Positions 17,632 to 28,808 of a DNA stretch of 33,436 bases are shown piece after piece. The position numbers were made by a program, and so were the translations under genes. Every line of letters starts with the position of its first letter. Position 1 is the stretch's first letter. The stretch comes from Paludibacteraceae bacterium. Its GTDB lineage: Bacteria > Bacteroidota > Bacteroidia > Bacteroidales > Paludibacteraceae. Under the pieces are notes generated by a model that was given only the letters and a program-made list of their open reading frames with translations, ran no database searches and was not told the DNA's origin. The DNA is taken from the NCBI GenBank assembly GCA_017464475.1, contig JAFTZQ010000029.1, positions 1-33,436 on the forward strand. Direction: 5' to 3'.

Positions 17632-18114
17632 TTAATCATTACTCTCTTCGTGCCGAATGATATAATACGGTATATTCAGCGCCTGTATCTCCGATTCGTA
17701 GCGGTCAAATAATTCTTTTCGTATCTCGTCCGAGCCGTTGCTGCGCGCGGGGTCGGGTACCCACGCTATGTCCGGATAGGTCAGCAGATAGACGTCCATC
17801 GGGTAGGCTTTGATGGCTTCGTTGAGCCACTCCGGCACACGCCCGAAAGCATAATCAAACCACACTTTGGTCACGATTAGTTCGGTGTCGAAGAAACTGA
17901 TATCTGATAGCTGATAGCTGACAGCTTTTATCTCCTCTATCTGCCGCCGTGCTATCTCGCATAGCTCCTCATAACTCACCTCCGTCGTACCTTTTTCCTC
18001 TACGTACCGCCGCGCATATTCCTCCACCAGCACGCCCTTGTATCGTCTCGCTAAGTACCGCGCCAATACGCTCTTCCCTGTGCTCTCCGGTCCTATGATC
18101 CCTACCTTGTACAT
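17632..18114 (-). CDS. NadR-like P-loop ATPase/kinase
   Basis: 160 residues with a Walker A motif GPESTGKS at 8-15, EEYAR at 31-35 and FFDTELIVTKVW near 74-85. This resembles the ribosylnicotinamide-kinase-like ATPase domain of NadR, which exists as a stand-alone protein in many Bacteroidota. It may phosphorylate nicotinamide riboside in NAD salvage, but the substrate is not proven. Residues 64-73 (AVSYQLSDIS) are encoded by a heptamer array. The ATG at 18114 shares its first base with the last base of the sprA stop (TGATG). A GTG one codon earlier is possible. Confidence 0.85.
   Translation of the reverse strand: MYKVGIIGPESTGKSVLARYLARRYKGVLVEEYARRYVEEKGTTEVSYEELCEIARRQIEEIKAVSYQLSDISFFDTELIVTKVWFDYAFGRVPEWLNEAIKAYPMDVYLLTYPDIAWVPDPARSNGSDEIRKELFDRYESEIQALNIPYYIIRHEESND
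17897..17924 (-). repeat. Heptamer array inside the NadR-like gene (4 units)
   Basis: Plus-strand units CTGATAT, CTGATAG, CTGATAG, CTGACAG. Read in frame on the minus strand as part of AVSYQLSDIS. The same CTGAnnG unit type is found in ruvA (26523-26550). Confidence 0.75.
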
Positions 18115-21100
18115 CACCTCGTCAGCATCAACTTGATATTCAATCCCACATTGTCTGCCTTCACCGGATAAGAGGACGAGATCAGCGGCGTCGTACCTTG
18201 GTGGTCGTAGAAGAGTTGCAGGTTGATCTTCTGGCTCAGGACATAGTCCGCCGAGATCTTGATCGCCAGCACTTTGTTGCCGGACGAAGCTTGCGTGATG
18301 CCTTCTTCTACTTTGCGGAGCAGCATCTTCACGTCCTTGTAGGACACATCTACTTGCAGCTTCAAGTCGTTGCTCACTTTCTTTTGTCCGCCGTCTTTCT
18401 TCTTGGCGATGAAACTGAGGTTTTTGATCGTATATCCGGCTCCGATGACGAACTCGGATGTATGTCCTTCGGTCAGTTGTACGCTCGTCACGTTCAGCGC
18501 CAGGTTGCGCTGCTTGCGGTACTCGGCTTTGAGACTCAACGAGTTTTTCATCGTCAAGTTCAGTCCGATTAGCGGCGCGAAAGCTTCGGTCAGCGTCACA
18601 TTGCTGATGTCGTACGCCGAGCTTGGACGCGGAGCGTCGGTCGTCACGTCGCGCACGAAACCGAGCATCTTGTTATTGCCGTCGCCGCCTACCCAGGTCG
18701 AGTAGCTGCCGTACGAACCGATGGCGTACTTACAGGTATAAGCGTGGGTCAGTGTCACGGACTTGAAATGGTCGCGCATCCACGGCAACTTGCCTAAACC
18801 GTCGTAGGTCACAGACCAGTTCGGCAGGATCTTCAGAATGCCCAAGAACGGGTTCAAACCGATCCTTCCGGCGTCTCTGCCGGTATAAGCCGCGAGGAAG
18901 GCAGGCACGAGTACATCCGCCGAGTTGCGGTTCACGGTGCCGTGTTTCGTCGGGTCGTATTTGGTGCCGAGCGGAATGTTGCTCATGAATCCGGTGCTTG
19001 GCAGGGTCATGCCGTTGTATTGCTCTTGCACGCGGTCGGTCAAGAGCGCGCGGTTCTCCAAGAAGCGGTCAAACGCGCTGTTGGCGAAGTTCTCCTCTTG
19101 GCTGCCGACGCGGCTGAAGATCGTTCCGATCGCTACTTGGGTGATGTTGAACGAACCCGTCATGTTTTCCTGCAGGTCGCCGTAGCTGTAAATGATCGAG
19201 GTGGATTGCGCCATATATCGTTTGCCGTTCAGCTGGATCTTGAATCCCGGAAGCGGTTCTAATGTCAGTTTGATGTCCAGATCGGAGGTGTGTGCCCTCG
19301 TCGCCGGCTGCACGATAGAGGTATCGCCGGAGAGCCAGCCGTGGGTTCTTGCGCGTTCCATAAAGTTATTCGGGATGAAACCGAAGGCGAAATCAAACCC
19401 CGGAGCATAAGCGCCGTTGGCTTTGCGTTGTCCCATAAATCCGGCTTCGGGCATGAATCCCGGTACGCTCAACGAGTTCGTCTCGCGGTAGGTCACTTGC
19501 AGCCTCCGGAACATCGTTCCTACGTAGGCGAACATATCGCCTGCGATCTGGGCGGAGGTGCGCTGGTTCGGATCCTTGGTCGTCACGGTCACGACGGCGT
19601 TCGCGCAGTCGCGCTTGGGGGTAATGGTCACTTTGGTGTTACCCGCCGGACGGAAGCTCACGGGCAGAACTCTGCCTGCCGAGTCGGTCACAGCCACTTG
19701 CAGCAACTCACTGTTGAGCCGGTGGGTGATCTCGACCGCTTCGCCTTTCTTCATATTGATAGTCTGGGTGTAAGTCTTGGGTTTGAAGGCACGCTGGCGC
19801 CCGCCACGACCTCCGTACCGCTGTGTCATCGTCTTCCAGTACTTGGACTTACCGTACCACGTCTCGAAATTGATTCCTCCATCGACCTGCCAGCTTTGGA
19901 GGCTGCTGACGGTGTTACCGCGGTCCACACCGTTCGTCGTAGAGGACGCCGTGCGGGTCCAGTTATAGGTCGCGTTGTAGGATCCGTTCGCAGTCAGCGC
20001 GTCCAGACCCGGAATGCGGTTCAAAGGCACATTCCAGCTGGCGGTGAAGACTTGTTGGTAGGTGTAAGGCGAACCCCATTTGGCGAGCGAACGCTGGATC
20101 GTATCACGCCATGCCTCGTATTTATCGTGGTTGAACTCCGGGTCGAAATACTGACCTTTCAGGATCTCCGGCGTGTATTTACCTTCATCAATGATGGCGT
20201 TCATTGCGCTCTGGAAACTGAATTTCATATTCTTCGTCAGGTCGTATTTGAAATCGACATGCCGGTCCCATGTGAAATCCTTGCTGTAGGTCAGATCCAT
20301 CGCATCGCTTGCCCCTCCGGCGAGGTCGCGCATCTTCATGTGACTGAAGGTACGGTGCATGTTGGTGTTGAATGCCCAGGACTGGGGCAGGTAGTAGAAA
20401 TTCATCTCTTTCAGGAATTTCACTTTCTGCACTTTCTCCACCTTGCTGAACGGCTCCCAGGGTTTGGGATTGAAGCTATAGGCGTATTGGAACGAACCCT
20501 TGTGGTCGGTGGTGTAGTTGGTTTCCATTTCCGGCGAGTGCTCGTTCTGTTTGTTGAACGAAGCGGAGATCGAGAAGTTCGCCGGATCGTAGAACATATC
20601 GCGTTTCTTGGAGTGGATGTTGACCTTCAGGTTGCTGACACTGAACGATGTGGACTCGTGTACGGTGTTGGTCATCCGTTTGATCGAGTCGCGTTCCTCT
20701 TTGGTGTCGTAGGTACTGAGGGTCTCGCTCAACTTGACGTCGCTGTCCAGAGGGTCGTAGTCGGGGCTGGTGGTCTCGTTGCTGTAGGAGACGTAGAGCG
20801 GCATCTGGATCTTCGCTTTCTCCGGGAAGAGACGTCCTCCTTCGAGGGCTGCGCTGACCGAGATCTGGTAGAAGTTATCCATGTTGCGGTCCAGCACGTT
20901 CGACTCGATCGAACCGTATCCTGCGGTCTCTAACCGTCCGGCTACGTTCAGCTGGGCGATGTCGCTGATCGCGAGGGCGGCATTCGCCATCGCAGCCACA
21001 CCGCCTTGTTCGTTGAACTGGCTCAGACGCAGCTCGTTCACCCATATCTCACCCGAGGCCTCGTGCTGGCCGTTGTTGCGCACACCGATCATGATGGTGC

Positions 21101-24100
21101 TGACGTCTTCCAGCGTCGGGTTTCCGAGGACAGTGATCTTGTTCTGTGGTTTGTCGTTCGCGTCGTCGTAGATCACGTACGGGATCGTGTTGCTGACACC
21201 CTCGTTGCCTGCCCGTTTGGCTTTGTTGCGGGCGGTCTTGGCGTCTGTCAGCACCTTCAGCGCAAAGTCGAACATATTCTCCTTCGGCCAAACGATCTCG
21301 CGGTCGGCAGCAGAGTTGTTGTTATACAGACCCGGTGCGGTCAGATGTAGCGGGATCTCATATTCGTAGTAGTTGTTGCGCAGGTCGGAACCCAGACGGA
21401 TGAAGCAGCTCAGGTCTCCGTCCTTCAAGTCCGGATCAACGGTACTCAGTTGCTCGGCATGGACAAACATCTGCAGGTTCTTGTATTGCCGCATGTCGTA
21501 ACCGGAGTTCTTGTACATCGCTCTGGCGTCGTGCGGGCTGAGATGTGCTACGCGCAGCACCATCGCTTGCTCGTTCTGGGCAATCAGCTGTGCCTGACCC
21601 GGGTCGGTCTGACGGCTTACGCCCGGAGGAAGCACGTAGTTGATCGGGGTACGGGTGCTGTTCTCCTCGATGTTGACGGTCTGCACGTCGATGGACGCGC
21701 CGGTGTTGACCGGCGTCCCGACGGGCGCCAGATCACGCGTGTACTGCCTCCAGTCGCCGCGCACCAAGTCCAGCGTAGCGAAACGCAAGTGCGTCTCTTT
21801 CTCGAATCCCGTCATGTACATACGCATGAAACGGATCGATTTCCAGTTGCGGATCGAACCGATCTTCTGCACGCTGGCGCTGTCGCCGCGGAGAGGAATC
21901 TTGAATTGGTACCACGTCACCTCTTGCGTCTCGCCGTTGCGCAGCGTCACATTGCGCACTTTCTTCTCCGTGATATGCTGCCGTCCCACCTCCATCATAT
22001 CCGGACGCAGGATGACCTTGTATTGGTAGTATTTCTCGTATTCGTTCAGGGTGTTATCGAGGTTGATATCCTCTATATCCGGCGTCAGAGTCGAAGCCGT
22101 ACCGTAACTCTCGCTCTGCTGCTCTGTCGCGGGCGAGTTGCCCTCCGTACCGTTGTAGTGTTTGTAACGCTCCAGAATAGGCACTTCCTCGCGGTCGAAA
22201 TCGGAACCTCTGTAGTAGTGGAAATCATCTCCCGCAGGGTCGTTCCTCGGCGAGAAGCGCTCGCCCTCCCAACGGTTCCAAACGTCTGCGGACACGCGGC
22301 TCTCCAGCTCCGTCAGGTACTGACGGTAAGCAGGCCAAGTCTTCTCCTGCTCGCTGTTCAGACCGTTCAGACCGACGTCCTGCATAGCGCGGGATCCGGT
22401 CTCGTTGCTGAAGGCAACAACGGTGCTGGTGGTCTTCGGGACATAACCCCAAATGGTGCTATCGACGCGACCTTGGTCGGCAGCGCTCACCGGCAGACCA
22501 TGCTCAAACGCTTTCTTGCCGTCGCGCAAGATGTCTTCGCTGATGTCACCGAGGTTGATATATAGTTCGCCGTCGTAGCCCTCGGGGTTGGTCAGCGCCG
22601 GGTCCATCAGCCAGAACTGGATGTACTCGATGTTGGCTTTCTCGAAATCGGTGTTGTCCAGCCGTCGCATAATACCGCCCCAGCGCTTCTTGGGGTTGGT
22701 CAGCTTACCGTCCGTACCGATCTCGCTGGCGGAGATATTGTACTGTCCGCGCTCCTCGGGGTAGTACGCGAGGTTCAGGATCGGCAGCTTGGTATCGACA
22801 TTGCTTGCTTCCTGGCGGTTAGGGTAAATCTCGTCCTGATAAACGATACGTGTCCTGTGGTCGCTCAGTGCCGCCAGGTCGTTTTTGATATGTGCCGGCG
22901 TGTTGGACTGGGGGTAGCCGAAAATAGGATCTACTGAGAACCACGACAGCAAAGCCCTGTTCTTGTTATATTCCGGTTTGTTGATTTCTTTCGATTCGTC
23001 GAAGACGGTCGGCGTGGAAGCGAGGAACCAGTAACTCGGATAGTGAATGTCGATATTGGTCGTGGTGCTCTCGAAATCGTCGATGTACGCTGTTCCGACG
23101 GCTCCGACATCGCGGGTGTGTCCCGGGATAAGGTGCGCAAACTCCGCATTGATCTGGAAGGTCGAAGGCGCGGTGGCATTGATCCAAGGAATCTTGTCGA
23201 TGGCGTTGGTGAGCCACTGCATCTCGGTCTTCCAACTGCCGTTGACGCCCCAGATCGTGTTCGCCAGCGGCTCCGAACCGGTGTTGACCTTGGTGGTCAG
23301 AGGACGCTCGCGCAAGTGCATGATCGTACCGCCGAGGACGAGGTCTTTGTTGAACTCGTACTCCAAGTGTGCACCGAACAGGCTCTTCCGTTGCAGCGAG
23401 AACGTACTCTGGTTCTCCAGCTTCACATCCACGTTCGTGCCGCTCTCCAGGATCGAGGTGTTCAGGATCGTCACTGTTCCCATCGTGTAATCGACGGTGT
23501 AATCGACGTTCTCGATCAGGGTAGCACCGCCGGCTGTGACGGTCACCGACCCACGCGGCACGTTCATCGCGCCCAGACGGATCTCGCTGCCGTTCGTGCC
23601 TTTGTATTTACCCGTCAAGTGGAATTTGTTCTTCTCGCTCAGTTCCTGCGCCACGATCAGCGTCGAGTCGTAGAGCTCGGGGAAGCAGTATTTCTTCACC
23701 AGCCGCGGGTCGTTGCCCAGGGCGTCTGCCAAATGGCTGCCGAACGGCTCCAGCACAGGGAAAATGATCTTGCCGGACGAGGCATAGACGGTCAGTCCTT
23801 CGATGAAGTCGAACCGTCCGTCGGGGGACGCGTTATGTTTCTGGTCTAATCGGTCGAGGTTCATCACGCGCAGCAGCTGCTTGCCGTTGATCGCCTCCGG
23901 TCCTTCGTTCAGGTATTGCACGTCCGTTCCCACCGAGTCGTTGCGGTACGTGACGTAGAGTTCGAACTTGTCTTGGTTGATGCTGGTAGCGCCGAGGGAG
24001 TAGATGTTTTTCATCATCAGGTCCCATGTGCCGCGACCTTTTTTGTTGGGTGCGTTCGCGCTGTTTTTCAGCATCTTCAGTGCCAGCGCATTCGGCGCGT

Positions 24101-25727
24101 GCAACTCCTCGCTGCCGTCCGTCGAGAACTCACCTACCTGATAGACCTTGCCGTTGTACGTGTATTCGTAAGCCACCGCCAAGACTTCGTCTTGGTTCAG
24201 CGCGCTCTTCAGCGAGATGTAACCCAACGCGCTGTTGAGCGTATATTCGCTGCTGGTCAGCAACCGCGCACTCTCGATCTTCTCGAAGTCATTTCCGCCC
24301 TCCATGCCGTTCATCCCTTCCAGCACTTGGCTGGTCTGCTGCAGGTTGCGGAAATCGGTCGCGCGGATAGCGGCATAAAGTCCGTTGGTGTTGTTGTCCG
24401 GTGCCAGACCGGGAGCGCCACCCCACGAGGTGTTAAAGACGTGGTCGCTGTTCTCGCCGAGGTCCGCAAAAGCCACGATGTTACGCGCTTGGTCGTAGTT
24501 ACCGCGTTTATTGGTGATCCAGACCTCGATCTTGTTGATCGTGATGCCGGAGGCTATGTAGGGCACGCTCGCCATCGCCGATTCGTAGCGGTCGCGGAAA
24601 TAGTGGCTCAGGAAGAAATGTCGGTTCTCGTCGTAGCTGTCGCCGCTGATGTCGAACTTGGTCATCTGCGATCCGCCTTTGCTGCTCACGGTCTGCGCCT
24701 CGCTGTTCTGCTGGCTGATGAGCGCCTGAATGCGGAACTTGCCGAATTTCAGGTTCGTCTTGATTCCGAAAAGTGCCTGGCTGCCTCGGATGAGCGATGA
24801 GGGCAGGTCCATCGTCACGTTACCGGCTTCGATACTCTGGATGATGTCGTCCTCTTCGCCTTTGTAGTTCAGTTTGAGGTTCTGCTGGTCGAACGAGAAA
24901 GAAGCCTCGGTGTTGTAACTCATGTTGAAATTGAGTTTCGAACCGACTTTTCCTTGTATGCTGGCTTGGATCTTCTCGTCGAAATCGAAGATGTTGTTGT
25001 TGCGCGCGCGTACAGTAAGAGACGGGTTGGCGATGTATTGGTGCTTGAATCCGAATAGCAACTCGGCGCTTCCTTGCATCTTCAGTTGCACGCCGCCCGG
25101 ACCGAACACTTTGTCCGCCGGACCGATATTGAATTTCATATCGGTGATGTCGAACTTGGACTCGTTGTTATGCTCCACCTCGCCTATTTTCTGCTGCCAG
25201 TACCGGTGCATGATCTGCCGCTCGGCGTAATGGTTATATTCGTCTTGCGTCAGCATATACGGCGTCGTGACGTCGGTCTCGCCGATGCGTGTGTGCAGCA
25301 CATACATACCCGTCTCCGGCTGGTATTCCACGGTAGTGGATATATTACCCGGATCTTGCAGATCCAATGAACTCTGCGGCTGCACCAGCTCGCCGAAGTT
25401 CTCCACGCCGAGTTGCTTCACTTTCGTCGGCGCCCAGATAGCGCTGTCCGTCTCCGTCACATAATCCGCTGCGGCTTCAGGGCTCGTCCCGTCGGCGGTA
25501 ACCGTTGCCCCGTCACCGCTCTCCCTCCCTTGAGGGGAGGGTTGGGGTGGGGTTTGTTTCTCTTTCTCGGCTTCTTTCCGTGCTTTCTCTTCCGCCACGA
25601 GTTCTTTCAGACTCTTGCCGCCGCGTTTGCTTTTGCCGTCGTTGTTCTGCGCATCAACCGCCATAGTCACCATCGGCAACCACAGCAACAGACTAACCAA
25701 TAATATGTATAAATATCTACCTTTCAA
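18114..25727 (-). CDS. sprA: SprA/Sov, type IX secretion outer-membrane translocon
   Basis: The very large (2537-residue) outer-membrane barrel through which T9SS substrates pass; also needed for gliding in flavobacteria. Features are an N-terminal signal peptide (about 1-24), a lysine-rich low-complexity segment, and then a long beta-rich body. Typical SprA stretches include FNIGPADKVFGPGGVQLKMQGSAE, YKGEEDDIIQSIEAGNV, GAVGTAYIDDFEST and the C-terminal LFYDHQGTTPLISSSYP. Residues 59-70 (TPPQPSPQGRES) come from a palindromic insertion. The start is a TTG that forms the edge of a heptamer array. The next in-frame Met lies inside the signal peptide. ruvA upstream and overlapping downstream genes suggest one transcription unit. 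Confidence 0.96.
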   Translation of the reverse strand: MKGRYLYILLVSLLLWLPMVTMAVDAQNNDGKSKRGGKSLKELVAEEKARKEAEKEKQTPPQPSPQGRESGDGATVTADGTSPEAAADYVTETDSAIWAPTKVKQLGVENFGELVQPQSSLDLQDPGNISTTVEYQPETGMYVLHTRIGETDVTTPYMLTQDEYNHYAERQIMHRYWQQKIGEVEHNNESKFDITDMKFNIGPADKVFGPGGVQLKMQGSAELLFGFKHQYIANPSLTVRARNNNIFDFDEKIQASIQGKVGSKLNFNMSYNTEASFSFDQQNLKLNYKGEEDDIIQSIEAGNVTMDLPSSLIRGSQALFGIKTNLKFGKFRIQALISQQNSEAQTVSSKGGSQMTKFDISGDSYDENRHFFLSHYFRDRYESAMASVPYIASGITINKIEVWITNKRGNYDQARNIVAFADLGENSDHVFNTSWGGAPGLAPDNNTNGLYAAIRATDFRNLQQTSQVLEGMNGMEGGNDFEKIESARLLTSSEYTLNSALGYISLKSALNQDEVLAVAYEYTYNGKVYQVGEFSTDGSEELHAPNALALKMLKNSANAPNKKGRGTWDLMMKNIYSLGATSINQDKFELYVTYRNDSVGTDVQYLNEGPEAINGKQLLRVMNLDRLDQKHNASPDGRFDFIEGLTVYASSGKIIFPVLEPFGSHLADALGNDPRLVKKYCFPELYDSTLIVAQELSEKNKFHLTGKYKGTNGSEIRLGAMNVPRGSVTVTAGGATLIENVDYTVDYTMGTVTILNTSILESGTNVDVKLENQSTFSLQRKSLFGAHLEYEFNKDLVLGGTIMHLRERPLTTKVNTGSEPLANTIWGVNGSWKTEMQWLTNAIDKIPWINATAPSTFQINAEFAHLIPGHTRDVGAVGTAYIDDFESTTTNIDIHYPSYWFLASTPTVFDESKEINKPEYNKNRALLSWFSVDPIFGYPQSNTPAHIKNDLAALSDHRTRIVYQDEIYPNRQEASNVDTKLPILNLAYYPEERGQYNISASEIGTDGKLTNPKKRWGGIMRRLDNTDFEKANIEYIQFWLMDPALTNPEGYDGELYINLGDISEDILRDGKKAFEHGLPVSAADQGRVDSTIWGYVPKTTSTVVAFSNETGSRAMQDVGLNGLNSEQEKTWPAYRQYLTELESRVSADVWNRWEGERFSPRNDPAGDDFHYYRGSDFDREEVPILERYKHYNGTEGNSPATEQQSESYGTASTLTPDIEDINLDNTLNEYEKYYQYKVILRPDMMEVGRQHITEKKVRNVTLRNGETQEVTWYQFKIPLRGDSASVQKIGSIRNWKSIRFMRMYMTGFEKETHLRFATLDLVRGDWRQYTRDLAPVGTPVNTGASIDVQTVNIEENSTRTPINYVLPPGVSRQTDPGQAQLIAQNEQAMVLRVAHLSPHDARAMYKNSGYDMRQYKNLQMFVHAEQLSTVDPDLKDGDLSCFIRLGSDLRNNYYEYEIPLHLTAPGLYNNNSAADREIVWPKENMFDFALKVLTDAKTARNKAKRAGNEGVSNTIPYVIYDDANDKPQNKITVLGNPTLEDVSTIMIGVRNNGQHEASGEIWVNELRLSQFNEQGGVAAMANAALAISDIAQLNVAGRLETAGYGSIESNVLDRNMDNFYQISVSAALEGGRLFPEKAKIQMPLYVSYSNETTSPDYDPLDSDVKLSETLSTYDTKEERDSIKRMTNTVHESTSFSVSNLKVNIHSKKRDMFYDPANFSISASFNKQNEHSPEMETNYTTDHKGSFQYAYSFNPKPWEPFSKVEKVQKVKFLKEMNFYYLPQSWAFNTNMHRTFSHMKMRDLAGGASDAMDLTYSKDFTWDRHVDFKYDLTKNMKFSFQSAMNAIIDEGKYTPEILKGQYFDPEFNHDKYEAWRDTIQRSLAKWGSPYTYQQVFTASWNVPLNRIPGLDALTANGSYNATYNWTRTASSTTNGVDRGNTVSSLQSWQVDGGINFETWYGKSKYWKTMTQRYGGRGGRQRAFKPKTYTQTINMKKGEAVEITHRLNSELLQVAVTDSAGRVLPVSFRPAGNTKVTITPKRDCANAVVTVTTKDPNQRTSAQIAGDMFAYVGTMFRRLQVTYRETNSLSVPGFMPEAGFMGQRKANGAYAPGFDFAFGFIPNNFMERARTHGWLSGDTSIVQPATRAHTSDLDIKLTLEPLPGFKIQLNGKRYMAQSTSIIYSYGDLQENMTGSFNITQVAIGTIFSRVGSQEENFANSAFDRFLENRALLTDRVQEQYNGMTLPSTGFMSNIPLGTKYDPTKHGTVNRNSADVLVPAFLAAYTGRDAGRIGLNPFLGILKILPNWSVTYDGLGKLPWMRDHFKSVTLTHAYTCKYAIGSYGSYSTWVGGDGNNKMLGFVRDVTTDAPRPSSAYDISNVTLTEAFAPLIGLNLTMKNSLSLKAEYRKQRNLALNVTSVQLTEGHTSEFVIGAGYTIKNLSFIAKKKDGGQKKVSNDLKLQVDVSYKDVKMLLRKVEEGITQASSGNKVLAIKISADYVLSQKINLQLFYDHQGTTPLISSSYPVKADNVGLNIKLMLTR
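25521..25553 (-). repeat. Palindromic element in frame in sprA
   Basis: CCCTCCC and GGGAGGG arms around TTGAG, then TTGGGGTGGGG. It translates on the minus strand as TPPQPSPQGRE. Palindromes with this exact character recur in Bacteroidota genomes (recalled, not searched). Confidence 0.7.
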
Positions 25728-25890: not shown

Positions 25891-25898
25891 TATTTTTG
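25891..25898 (+). promoter_or_regulatory. -7 box for the RNA candidate downstream
   Basis: TATTTTTG matches TAnnTTTG and sits 3 bp before the first paired base of the structured RNA. No good -33 TTG is present at the normal distance, so strength is uncertain. Confidence 0.5.
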
Positions 25899-25901
25899 TA
25901 A

Positions 25902-26034
25902 GGCAGCCGGACGACTTATTGAAGTCGTGCGGAATGGGTATTGGTTTTTGTTCTCTGGGAGCTTGCTCACAAGAGGGCAAAAGCCGGTGCCCATTAGGCT
26001 ACATTAGTAGCCGTCCTGCCGCATTTTCGTTTTT
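25902..26034 (+). ncRNA. Candidate structured RNA 1 (four-helix, unknown family)
   Basis: Helices seen: a closing stem GGCA...TGCC (25902-25905/26017-26020) with GG/CC continuing after a bulge; hairpin ACGACTT-ATTG-AAGTCGT (25911-25928); an uninterrupted 24-bp helix 25933-25956 with 25972-25995; and hairpin GGCTAC-ATTA-GTAGCC (25997-26012). The long helix has six G-U pairs that would become A-C mismatches on the other strand, so the plus strand is the RNA strand. It is capped by GGGAGCUUGCUCACA containing a GAG-CUUG-CUC mini-hairpin. T-rich sequence follows (to 26034). An alternative closing stem TGCGG/CCGCA (25928-25932/26019-26023) is also possible. It is convergent with ruvA and antisense to the ruvA-sprA spacer. 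Confidence 0.65.
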
Positions 26035-26049
26035 AATCTTCAAATCTTC

Positions 26050-26679
26050 TCAAAGCATTTTCAGCGCCTCGCGTATGACCGCTTCCACTTTGAGTGTCGG
26101 CTCGCCTTTGAGTATCTTGTCAACCGCCTTGCCGCTGGGCGCCGTAGCGAACCCGAGCATCGTCAGTGCGCTGATGGCTTCGGCGCGCACGCCGGTGTCC
26201 GCTTCGGGCGCTAACATCGGTATCTCCGTGGGGTCGCCTCCGAGATCCAGCTTGATCGCTTTGTCTTTCAGATCAACGATGATCCGTTGTGCGGTCTTGG
26301 GTCCGAGGCCTTTCACTTTCGCCATCGCTTTGGCGTTGCCGGTGGCGATCAGCATCCGCAGTTCCTCTGCGCTGAACGCGCTCATGATCATGCGCGCGGT
26401 CGATGCACCCACGCCGCTCACGGTCATCAGCAGCTCAAACAGCCGCCGTTCGCTTTTCTCCACGAAACCGTATAACTCATGCGCGTCCTCGCGTATGACC
26501 TCCGTGATATAGAGCTTCACTTCTGACGGCTGATGGCTGACGGCTGAAGGCTCTTCTTTCCCCACCATCGCGCTGTACCCTGGCAGCGTAATAGCGATAG
26601 CGTATCCCACGCCCGCTGCTTCGACCACTGCTTCCGTCGGATTCAGTTCCGTCAATATTCCTTTTATATAATCAATCAT
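26050..26679 (-). CDS. ruvA: Holliday junction branch migration protein RuvA
   Basis: Binds four-way junctions and loads the RuvB motor. The 209-residue protein has the N-terminal OB-fold (MIDYIKGILTEL, GVGYAI), the linker VREDAHELYGF-type segment, two helix-hairpin-helix motifs (LLMTVSGVGASTARMIM, KAMAKVKGLGPKTAQRIIVDL) and the C-terminal RuvB-contact domain. Residues 41-53 (KEEPSAVSHQPSE) form an extra loop in the OB fold, encoded by a heptamer array. It heads the minus-strand cluster, with sprA next but separated by about 320 bp that hold an RNA candidate on the other strand. Confidence 0.96.
   Translation of the reverse strand: MIDYIKGILTELNPTEAVVEAAGVGYAIAITLPGYSAMVGKEEPSAVSHQPSEVKLYITEVIREDAHELYGFVEKSERRLFELLMTVSGVGASTARMIMSAFSAEELRMLIATGNAKAMAKVKGLGPKTAQRIIVDLKDKAIKLDLGGDPTEIPMLAPEADTGVRAEAISALTMLGFATAPSGKAVDKILKGEPTLKVEAVIREALKML
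26523..26550 (-). repeat. Heptamer array inside ruvA (4 units)
   Basis: Plus-strand units CTGACGG, CTGATGG, CTGACGG, CTGAAGG. It encodes AVSHQPS-like residues in a loop of the OB domain that is shorter in ordinary RuvA. Confidence 0.75.
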
Positions 26680-26807
26680 TTATATATTTCCCTTTGTGTA
26701 ATTAAAATTCGTTTAATTCGCGTAATTCGTGAACGAAAAGCAAATAAATTTTTGAATAATTTTGGGTAATTTTGGACCAACTAAATAAATTTTATCTTTT
26801 TTTATGG
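26680..26807. other. ruvA upstream region with 9-bp repeats
   Basis: No gene seen. AATTCG recurs at 26706, 26715 and 26724 (9-bp units AATTCGTTT, AATTCGCGT, AATTCGTGA). TAATTTTG occurs twice, at 26757-26764 and 26767-26774, as a 10-bp tandem repeat. Each matches TAnnTTTG and could start a transcript into RNA candidate 2. No convincing minus-strand promoter for ruvA was found. Confidence 0.5.
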
Positions 26808-26926
26808 CTTTTAAATGCTTTACCCGCAGGGTGTGGATTTTGGGGATAGAAACTATCCGGGTGCTTGCACACGAGGAGTTTATAGCCCCGAAATACACAT
26901 AGAGCGAAGCTCAAAGCATTTAAAAG
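26808..26926 (+). ncRNA. Candidate structured RNA 2 (same architecture as RNA 1)
   Basis: A perfect 14-bp closing stem (26808-26821 with 26913-26926) encloses three further helices. These are hairpin ACCC-GCA-GGGT (26822-26832), a long helix 26833-26858 with 26875-26898 (three purine-purine mismatches, one G-U pair, a 2-nt bulge), and hairpin GAGC-GAA-GCUC (26902-26912). The long helix is capped by GGGUGCUUGCACACGA with a GUG-CUUG-CAC mini-hairpin. Overall span is 119 nt, the same as RNA 1. A local alternative, GGATAG-AAA-CTATCC (26844-26858), competes with the long helix. No open reading frame is evident inside. Function unknown. Confidence 0.62.
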
Positions 26927-27057
26927 TGTTTATCTATGTTTATTTACTTTATCAAAGATCTTATACGCGAAAAAGCGCACAAAATTACAACTTTTTTTTC
27001 GAATACGCAAGAAAGTACGCATTTTTGACGATTTTTCCACCTTTTATTTTTGTTTTT

Positions 27058-27104
27058 GATTGAAAATGATGATATTTTTTTGAAAATTGATTGAAAATGA
27101 TGAT
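27058..27104 (+). promoter_or_regulatory. Paired 16-bp operators before the AraC-type regulator
   Basis: GATTGAAAATGATGAT occurs perfectly at 27058-27073 and 27089-27104, start-to-start 31 bp (about three helical turns). The second copy starts 37 bp before the -7 box. The same arrangement recurs at 28895-28941. It probably binds a dimeric regulator; the adjacent AraC-type protein is the obvious candidate. Confidence 0.75.
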
Positions 27105-27105
27105 T

Positions 27106-27137
27106 CATATATCAAAAAAAAGCAGTACCTTTGCAGC
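27106..27137 (+). promoter_or_regulatory. Promoter of the AraC-type regulator
   Basis: TACCTTTG at 27126-27133 is the -7 box, within a 32-bp stretch nearly identical to the fumarase promoter core at 235-266. No TTG lies at the usual -33 position; the operator copy ends there instead, which fits an activator-dependent promoter. Confidence 0.75.
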
Positions 27138-27152
27138 AAAATTCATATAATT

Positions 27153-28808
27153 ATGAAACGCACATCTGTTTTTCTTGCATTGTTGCTCGCCTGCTGCTCC
27201 CTGTGGGCGGCTGATCCGGAAACATCGCTGGCGGCTTTTGACAAGAAAGTGACGCCGGCTAACGCGGCTCTTTTCTTCTCAGCCCTGGAGGAGCGGGAAT
27301 TCCTCGACGAACCGATCGTGGTTTCTGAAACCACCTCGCATGACTCCCTCTGCGCCTGGGTCTGGTATTGGGCGGCGGAGTATTACTATGACGCCCAGGA
27401 TTTCCTCCGCTCTGCCGGCTATGGCGAACGCGCACTGCCCCTATGCGAAGCCATCGGTGACAAGACCATGGAGGCGGACTGCGCCTCTCTCCTCGGTCTG
27501 ATCTATGTGCGACTCGGCGATTTCGACAAGGCCGCGCTCTATGCCAAACGATGCAACAGACTGGACATCGAGAGCGGTAATCCCAATAACATCGCCTCCT
27601 CGTATAACACCCTCGCGGGCATTTACATGTCCATGCGAAAGCCGGACGAAGCGGAGCAATATATCCTGCGCGCCATCGAATATGTGGAGAAAACGGATAA
27701 TCTGCCGCGAAAAGCGGTCATCTACGGCATGGCGTCCGAGGTGTACCAGCATCAGAGGAAGTTCCCGCAGACGCTGGATTATGCTACACGCGCTTGGGAA
27801 ATCGAGACCCGGCTCGGACGTACGGACAAAGCGGCTATCCGCCAAACCCAGCGCGCTGCCGCGCTCATCGCTATGGACCGGTTCGACGAAGCGGAAAAGA
27901 TCTTGCGGGAAGCCATTCCTGTCATCGAAGCCTCCGGCAATTACCACTCGCTCGCTATCGCCTATAACCATCTGGGAGACCTCCTTTATATCACAGGGCG
28001 AAACCGCGAAGGAGCCGATTACTATTACAAAGCCCTGCCCATCTTCATGGAGCAGCATGATATTTATAATGAAGCGCACACGCGCAAGGGCTTGCGCGAA
28101 ACACTACGGGGCATTGATCCCGAAGCCGCGCTCGAGCACGGGGACCGCTTTGAGCACTTGCGAGACTCTATCTATGATAGCGAATCGAATGCCAACCTCA
28201 CGAGGCTGGCTGCCGAGATGGAGAACGACATACTCCGGCAGATCAACCGGAAGCAGCAGATCCGGACGATCATCCTGATCTCGGTCATCAGCGCGATCTT
28301 CGTCTTCATGGCGATCGCTACCTATGTCAATTATCGACGCAGAACACGCAGACAGGTGGAGCATTTCAGCCATCTGCTCAACGAAGTCCAGAAACTCCGC
28401 CATGCCGAGCGTGTCAAGCACGCCATCGCCAAGGCTGAACCCGCAACGGAAGAGAAGGAATTGCTCGCCGAAGCTGATGACGATCTCTTCATGGCGAGGG
28501 TCATTGATTATATTTCCGCACACCTTCCTAATGGAGATCTCGGTATTAACGGAATGGCGGAGTCGCTTTGCATGTCTTCATCCACCTTCCGGCGCAGAAT
28601 GTATGCAATCACAAAGGGTTCGCCGAAGATGTTTGTCCGTGTCGTTCAGATCAATAAAGCTAAAGAACTTCTGTCCTCTACCACCTTGACTATCAAGGAA
28701 ATATCTGCCCAATGCGGCTATAAGGAAGTCAACTCTTTCATCCGTGCTTTCCAGAGCGACACAGGCGTCACGCCCGCCAAATGGCGAGACCAATATAAAA
28801 CCGAATAA
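27153..28808 (+). CDS. TPR - transmembrane - AraC-type one-component regulator
   Basis: 551 residues from the ATG at 27153; an in-frame ATG at 27087 lies upstream of the -7 box and is rejected. Order: signal peptide (about 1-19, MKRTSVFLALLLACCSLWA), TPR repeats in a presumably periplasmic region (about 85-330; e.g. YNTLAGIYMSMRKPDEAEQYILRA, YNHLGDLLYITGRNREGADYYYKAL), one membrane helix (about 369-392), a short basic linker, and an AraC/HTH_18 DNA-binding domain (about 455-551; MCMSSSTFRRRMYAIT-type first helix-turn-helix and IKEISAQCGYKEVNSFIRAFQ second). Such proteins sense outside and bind DNA inside. Its own promoter and that of the following adhesin gene carry identical repeat pairs. 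Confidence 0.9.
   Translation: MKRTSVFLALLLACCSLWAADPETSLAAFDKKVTPANAALFFSALEEREFLDEPIVVSETTSHDSLCAWVWYWAAEYYYDAQDFLRSAGYGERALPLCEAIGDKTMEADCASLLGLIYVRLGDFDKAALYAKRCNRLDIESGNPNNIASSYNTLAGIYMSMRKPDEAEQYILRAIEYVEKTDNLPRKAVIYGMASEVYQHQRKFPQTLDYATRAWEIETRLGRTDKAAIRQTQRAAALIAMDRFDEAEKILREAIPVIEASGNYHSLAIAYNHLGDLLYITGRNREGADYYYKALPIFMEQHDIYNEAHTRKGLRETLRGIDPEAALEHGDRFEHLRDSIYDSESNANLTRLAAEMENDILRQINRKQQIRTIILISVISAIFVFMAIATYVNYRRRTRRQVEHFSHLLNEVQKLRHAERVKHAIAKAEPATEEKELLAEADDDLFMARVIDYISAHLPNGDLGINGMAESLCMSSSTFRRRMYAITKGSPKMFVRVVQINKAKELLSSTTLTIKEISAQCGYKEVNSFIRAFQSDTGVTPAKWRDQYKTE

Follow-up and report, generated by a model that had tools for sequence, protein, structure and literature searches.

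Among described systems, those closest to the elements considered here are the REPIN/RAYT (TnpA-REP) systems, or REPtrons. These comprise extragenic structured repeats dispersed as singles and inverted pairs and an enzyme gene flanked by its own repeats, with one repeat family per enzyme type and several per genome (PMC3116915, PMC6006769). One of these papers also states that REPtrons do not transpose as a unit (PMC6006769). The intervening sequences of 23S rRNA with the S23 ORF are described as small selfish elements with a short ORF and a folded RNA (PMC4990558), and the MITEs of Bacteroidales, e.g., those of Porphyromonas gingivalis, as short, dispersed, non-autonomous repeats (PMC4596501).

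The elements described below resemble each of these in part. They share with REPIN/RAYT a layout in which repeats flank a cognate enzyme gene, with one class per enzyme clade (a likeness of layout only, seen at 3 + 20 genes), and they too are dispersed as singles and inverted pairs. However, the neighboring enzyme is a PD-(D/E)XK protein (PF13366/TIGR04256) and not an HUH Y1 protein, and the unit is a four-helix fold of ~140–170 bp, whereas a REP is a 20–40-bp palindrome with a GTAG-type foot. Unlike in REPINs, the 5' ends face each other in pairs, and the unit of gene plus element is itself polymorphic between sister species, which sets it apart from REPtrons as described. Neither the enzyme nor the fold is related to its counterpart in REPs, so the system would work like a REPtron without being a member of that group; judged by analogy, its layout copies REPIN/RAYT with an unrelated enzyme. 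Like the 23S rRNA intervening sequences, these would be small selfish elements with a short ORF and a putatively folded RNA, but the protein family is another one and the elements are intergenic in the copies whose context was read. Like the MITEs they are short, dispersed, and non-autonomous, but single copies have direct-repeat-like T-rich ends and no terminal inverted repeats, and their secondary structure covaries.

The window is the whole stretch of DNA that was analyzed, the 33,436-nt contig JAFTZQ010000029.1 of Paludibacteraceae bacterium GCA_017464475.1, a 1.90-Mb assembly that is 71% complete (the source genome). The original prediction placed two structured RNAs of equal length on either side of ruvA. 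Direct inspection of the sequence agrees that both segments are 119 nt long and on the plus strand, and they form the cores of two larger units (R1 is a covariance model introduced below):

18114..25727, minus strand: ORF of 2537 aa downstream of ruvA, which we take to be sprA-like; copy 1 lies between it and ruvA
25892..26029, plus strand: copy 1, whole type I element of subgroup A (from sequence, fold, and R1 match at E 2.7e-5), with ATTTTTG as left end signal, followed by TAA, the core, and GCATTTTCG as right end signal
25902..26020, plus strand: core of copy 1, from the fold
25902-25906/26016-26020, plus strand: helix P1 of copy 1, from the fold
25907-25932, plus strand: helix P2 of copy 1, from the fold
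25933-25956/25972-25995, plus strand: helix P3 of copy 1, from the fold
25957-25971, plus strand: apical GGGAGCUUGCUCACA of copy 1, from the fold
25982..25984, plus strand: AGC of copy 1, 11 nt 3' of the loop pattern (pattern match 25957-25984)
25997-26012, plus strand: helix P4 of copy 1, from the fold
26050..26679, minus strand: ruvA ORF, between copies 1 and 2 and outside the element
26790..26947, plus strand: copy 2, whole type II element of subgroup B (from sequence, R1 match, and conservation of the ends)
26790-26805, plus strand: T-rich left end of copy 2
26805-26936, plus strand: R1 match of copy 2, 124.6 bits (copy 2 is itself in the model)
26808..26926, plus strand: core of copy 2, from the fold
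from 26859, plus strand: apical GGGUGCUUGCACACGA of copy 2, from the fold
26928-26947, plus strand: T-rich right end GTTTATCTATGTTTATTTAC of copy 2

Both cores fold far better than shuffled sequence, copy 1 at -69.7 kcal/mol (z -10.0) and copy 2 at -46.0 kcal/mol (z -6.2), with none of 200 shuffles equally good in either case. Copy 1 is the top fold of the window, 6.75 sd below the G+C trend (120-nt windows, step 20, both strands). Energies on the plus strand are lower than on the reverse strand (-71.3 vs -49.1 for copy 1; -48.8 vs -43.7 for copy 2). The folds agree with the proposed order of helices, i.e., closing P1, short P2, long P3 with an apical hairpin, and short P4. Equality of the helices does not extend to their lengths, as P1 measures 5 bp in copy 1 against ~14 bp in copy 2. 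The proposed long helix of 24 bp is found in copy 1, whereas in copy 2 it is interrupted by internal loops. The surmise that this is no known RNA family held, in that Rfam 15 gave no match in the window at gathering score and nothing credible up to E 10; seven loci with further copies also gave none at the gathering threshold.

The apical loop shared by the copies exceeds chance: the pattern GGGNGCTTGCNCAC has 13 matches in the 1.90-Mb source genome and none for a reversed-pattern control. Twelve of the 13 show the four-helix P1-P2-P3-P4 design in their minimum-energy fold, the exception being L003, where the P2 region pairs differently, and all 13 carry AGC 3' of the loop pattern, at 11 nt or, in one, 10 nt. 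By stem sequence they fall into subgroups A (five, with copy 1), B (three, with copy 2), C (three), D (one), and E (one). The strict pattern including AGC occurs in just 4 of 61 genomes, the source genome counted, because the loop itself covaries elsewhere; relatives have GAG/CUC, GUG/CAC, and AAG/CUU variants and UUUA in place of CUUG. What stands of the predicted functional RNA family is a structured-RNA-like family with covarying stems and a conserved apical hairpin; the loop that was thought fixed is not.

The covariance model R1 was built from eight sequences, six copies from the source genome (subgroups B, C, and E, copy 2 included) and two from relatives. Copy 1 and its subgroup A were left out, and R1 recovered copy 1 nonetheless, at the E value given above. 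Matches at E ≤ 1e-3 occur in 88 of 151 genomes of this rumen Paludibacteraceae genus, the source genome included. Scoring the best 22 candidates per genome gives lower bounds of at least 22 matches in the source genome, 21 in G029, and 19 each in G086 and G113. In stretches of the source genome R1 finds 29 places on the element strand, including one truncated copy and one at E 0.027. Across the order, strict filters and scoring of the best 11 candidates in each genome left matches in 3 of 295 genomes: the source genome, one congener, and G655, from outside the genus, with a single weak match (E 5.8e-4). The named relatives are rumen Paludibacteraceae or Bacteroidales MAGs. Among the matches listed, at least 10 begin <150 nt from a contig start, which is expected if near-identical copies break assemblies. 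A search for viral carriage found four viral contigs that fit the strict loop pattern, none that fit two other patterns, and no R1 match at E ≤ 0.01 in any of the four; plasmid and phage records held no similar DNA at E ≤ 0.01. No description of such an element was found in the literature searched (mostly open-access papers), nor a mention in the main text of PMC8040213. Judged from sequence and predicted structure, copies 1 and 2 are members of a large family of small, mobile-looking repeats with RNA-like structure, a family that is carried by rumen bacteria and is not yet catalogued.

Covariation was measured on 85 R1 matches at E ≤ 1e-8, 84 of them distinct. Here 91.9% of cells pair, against 75.2% when shuffled, both partners vary in 35 of the 36 base pairs, and covariation scores 0.535, compared with 0.228 after shuffling and no more than 0.155 after sliding. 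The evidence is strong rather than unbiased, since the alignment was fitted to R1 and its rows are related. The covariance-model search and covariation test suggested with the original prediction therefore came out in its favor. G-U cells outnumber A-C cells (201 vs 30), and 83 of the 85 matches have the lower energy on the plus strand; both point to function on one strand, so that the folded strand would most simply be RNA. The same covariation and strand bias would suit small-RNA genes or cis-regulators of the host, with their own promoter, serving the cell and copied by duplication. In addition, TATTTTTG just before the type I core fits the -7 consensus of Bacteroidetes, TAnnTTTG. We consider this reading unlikely, as the elements are present or absent, and change place, between sister species, and the nuclease gene discussed below is the only constant neighbor. 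Variable stems on a constant design, together with bias to a single strand, are also found in the attC-like cassette sites of integron-like systems, and G002:C9 holds a run of four same-strand copies. That the elements are such sites is highly improbable, given that copies occur in either orientation, dispersed next to ordinary genes, and that the constant part is apical (by general criteria for attC).

The complete unit is ~140–170 bp long, with a four-helix core of ~120 nt. Among 41 type II copies, conservation fades ~20 nt to the left and ~16 nt to the right of R1, and the left ends resemble TTTATNTATGTTTATYGC, the right ends GTTTATCTATGTTTATTTAC. Type I ends, seen in subgroup A and class F, are ATTTTTG|TAAGGC on the left and GCCGC|ATTTTCG on the right. 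In single copies the T-rich ends stand in like orientation and are not terminal inverted repeats. As to whether the T-rich sequence is a pre-existing target, a pattern of joined ends has matches in 2 of 151 genomes and is no commoner than the control, with two matches; most likely, then, the ends are part of the element. Inverted pairs recur among R1 matches, with 5' ends facing and 46–212 bp apart (L010, L071, L072, L073, L033, L034, L035, L057, L236). Class F is a further class in the source genome, with type I ends, found at six places (L188, L189, L190, L192, L194, L197); its apical sequences differ from those of other copies and some are much longer. Several class F copies are preceded by what looks like a mini-element, a short TAAGCGAAGCGC unit with an ATTTTTG repeat on either side. 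A AATTTTTGACTAATAAAAA-like repeat, perhaps a preferred target or another repeat, lies just beyond the left end of copy 2, L010, L058 11240 and 13076, L066 1107, L067 3356, L071, and L072.

A tie to ruvA is not supported. RuvA of the window was found in 141 of 151 congeners, and among 80 related ruvA loci R1 matches twice in L109, once just upstream in L117, and once ~3.8 kb upstream in L124; an element lies within ~1 kb of ruvA in only two of the 80, one belonging to a nearest sister. On these counts we reject a regulator tied to ruvA. The two copies are moreover of different end-types, linked to different nuclease clades, and so are no pair made for ruvA. In the relative L084 the counterparts of ruvA and of the 2537-aa ORF almost adjoin.

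Comparison with sister species bears on mobility. The nearest relatives by RuvA (99%) are RUG11067, which has the same contig coordinates as G087, and RUG13776. RUG11067 has both window copies at ruvA and RUG13776 has neither. In RUG13776 the stretch after ruvA aligns and copy 1 is absent; the stretch before ruvA could not be aligned, and rearrangement may account for the absence on that side. One RUG13776 stretch after ruvA resembles a scar of joined ends. In one syntenic block the source genome lacks an A-type copy that G087 has, with the join exactly at ATTTTCG. This is the one precise join; the joins are not clean where the source copies L058 13076 and L059 3499 are absent from G087 or where L058 16013 is absent from RUG13776. 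No target duplication could be established at the presence/absence sites compared, most of which are not clean. A 338-bp A/F pair, 91% identical, stands in different places in the source genome and RUG13776. The sole D-type element of the source genome (L002 1440-1577, plus strand) adjoins an HPF/YfiA gene; in RUG13776 the D-type element is elsewhere, and at that other place the source genome has a truncated remnant. Copies thus come and go between sisters, and the elements do not look like fixed host genes. The original prediction had named occurrence only as parts of transposable elements without RNA expression as a result that would count against it, and that is half the case, as the family behaves like a mobile element.

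Two orthologous sites differ in another way between the source genome and G087: the outer flanks match and the element cores differ (L058 16013-16147 and L059 51-185 vs L062 8683-8817 and 4806-4938). The second of these sites has an inner stretch, surrounding the TGTGAGCTTGTTCACA loop, that is common to both species. Since simple insertion does not explain differing cores inside matching flanks, the pattern suggests that copies were replaced or recombined with one another; compensatory change at a very fast rate is another possible explanation.

One element of the source genome adjoins a TIGR04256 (GxxExxY, PDDEXK_3) gene. Such genes score over the cut-off in 79 of 151 congeners, and both clades recognized here, MQYTLKR and VEEPRRQEL, are present in the source genome. 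Twenty nuclease loci were taken, 6 for a known nearby element and 14 by score rank, the latter with no element nearby among the matches listed (G127:C17, G128:C21, and G018:C32 were left out despite similar rank). These 14 loci contain 12 MQYTLKR-clade genes, 10 of which have an R1 match within 250 bp (E ≤ 0.01). At the two exceptions, L229, missed by R1, and L221, with a match 782 bp away, an upstream element is visible by eye. Structure at z ≤ -4 is found in the upstream flank of 9 of the 12 antisense and 7 sense, in the downstream flank of 4 and 2 on the two strands, and inside the genes in none on either strand. Among matches within 250 bp, the nearest upstream one is antisense in 11 of 12 genes (the exception is L236), and the downstream one is sense in 9 of 12 (the exceptions are L225, L228, and L232).

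The two clades also differ in the ends of their neighboring elements. By simple expressions and in small numbers, the type I start signal accompanies all 3 VEEPRRQEL-clade genes and none of the 20 MQYTLKR-clade genes, and a loose type II start signal, within 55 nt and upstream-antisense, beside 17 of 20 MQYTLKR and 0 of 3 VEEPRRQEL genes. The end-type of copy 2 therefore goes with MQYTLKR and that of copy 1 with VEEPRRQEL. The VEEPRRQEL gene of the source genome is inserted together with its element where both sisters lack them. At the genome level, R1 matches and GxxExxY are associated with an odds ratio of 10.9 (p 1e-8) for a hand-read 90–113-bit set and of 5.6 for all GxxExxY over the cut-off, figures that are uncorrected for kinship and partly circular. 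G149 (13 copies) and G006 (10 copies) have no GxxExxY match in drafts that are 83 and 84% complete, and G002 (13 copies; 90% complete) has one, below the cut-off. These neighborhoods make a GxxExxY PD-(D/E)XK nuclease the likely partner of the elements.

A structured neighbor beside the nuclease gene on nearly every copy of one clade would also be found if the nuclease acted as a toxin or selfish gene, with the RNA as its antitoxin or control element and the unit spreading otherwise. We regard this as very unlikely: in contrast to type III systems, the strand of the upstream element is opposite to that of the gene; most copies were found without an adjoining nuclease gene; and PADLOC gave no match.

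The PF13366 profile matches 21 of 21 nucleases compared, TIGR04256 scores 107.8 bits against a cut-off of 35, and the catalytic-looking residues D83, E93, and K95 are invariant in all 21. The predicted structure (mean pLDDT 93.9) is nearest to 4ic1 (SSO0001), presumably a Cas4, followed by lambda-type exonucleases; at E 3.9e-4 this nearest solved fold has a TM-score of only 0.50. A PDB sequence search gave no match. From conserved residues and modeled fold, the protein is likely an active nuclease. The PD-(D/E)XK superfamily includes junction resolvases, which makes a four-way junction beside such a nuclease suggestive; Phage_endo_I, which we take to be a junction resolvase family, matches weakly (6 of 21 members, best E 0.021, below threshold), so a resolvase-like role is just a hint. 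Passages on GxxExxY in one paper of the literature searched do not concern RNA. GxxExxY scores over the cut-off in 149 of 296 sampled Bacteroidota genomes. Structure was also considered as a general trait beside GxxExxY across the phylum, and canonical genes mostly lack structured flanks: among the 30 best-scoring loci, with the ORF miscalled in ~4, upstream flanks reach z < -4 in 6 and 5 on the two strands, downstream flanks in 1 and 1, and controls in 1–2. Several GxxExxY subfamilies within the genus lack structured flanks as well.

Enzymes other than the neighboring nuclease might move the elements. REP-like or IS200/IS605-like single-stranded DNA elements are moved in trans by Y1 (HUH) transposases, and in that case the nuclease would be a passenger. 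Hairpin-bearing units with unlike ends, inverted pairs, and one precise join suit such a mover, and Y1_Tnp shows a weak genome-level association (odds ratio 2.7, p 0.009, uncorrected for kinship). This is nevertheless distinctly unlikely, as the association is weaker than that for GxxExxY, many of the Y1 matches are themselves weak, in the loci that were annotated no copy has a Y1 gene next to it, and the two genomes with the most R1 matches, the source genome and G029 (drafts 71 and 82% complete), have no Y1_Tnp match. Spread by reverse transcription of the RNA through a resident reverse transcriptase, as in a bacterial SINE, would fit the RNA-like strand bias, T-rich ends, and many gene-less copies. 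There is scarcely any probability in it, given that RVT_1 occurs in 31 of 151 genomes, neither the source genome nor G029 among them, and is not associated with copies (odds ratio 1.2, p 0.84).

Recurrent protein families of ~100 aa (MGKVVFEDPIHH... and MSKYNLEVPF...), with no Pfam or NCBIfam name, stand beside several elements of the source genome (L001 356-673, minus; L004 447-755 and 1196-1531, plus; L007 1043-1381, minus; L010 789-1094, plus; L013 817-1155 and 1925-2248, minus), those of L013 near a smalltalk-like ORF. These are possibly another type of mobile or hypervariable locus. The 573-aa ORF at 27087-28808 of the window adjoins copy 2 and has, by eye, repeat-like and helix-turn-helix-like parts; proteins with a similar C-terminal end adjoin elements in L005/L059 and L012.

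On balance we think it probable, with some reserve, that copies 1 and 2 are non-autonomous mobile elements cognate to GxxExxY nucleases; their transcription, and their binding and movement by the nuclease, are what we infer. One strand of the unit is predicted to fold into a four-way junction of four helices, and T-rich end signals, of which there are two types, mark its borders. The nuclease gene usually has one element directly upstream, on the strand opposite to its own, and often a second downstream on its own strand, the 5' ends facing the gene, and each of the two clades has its own end-type. By analogy with REPIN/RAYT, the nuclease may recognize the folded strand, as RNA or single-stranded DNA, together with the ends, and may promote excision and the dispersal of copies that lack a gene, the two near ruvA among them. 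A rather unlikely variant is a new class of mobile ribonucleoprotein in which GxxExxY binds a cognate four-way-junction RNA that the element encodes and, with its help, cuts or joins DNA, with RNA-only copies spreading SINE-like without a reverse transcriptase or Y1 transposase.

If elements cognate to the nuclease are indeed what these copies are, they would constitute a REPIN-like system that has an unrelated nuclease at its core and a folded unit of much greater size. This would give GxxExxY a first testable role and substrate, and it would account for up to dozens of uncatalogued structured repeats per rumen bacterial genome. The presence of two end-types and two nuclease clades in one genome makes cognate recognition testable in vitro.
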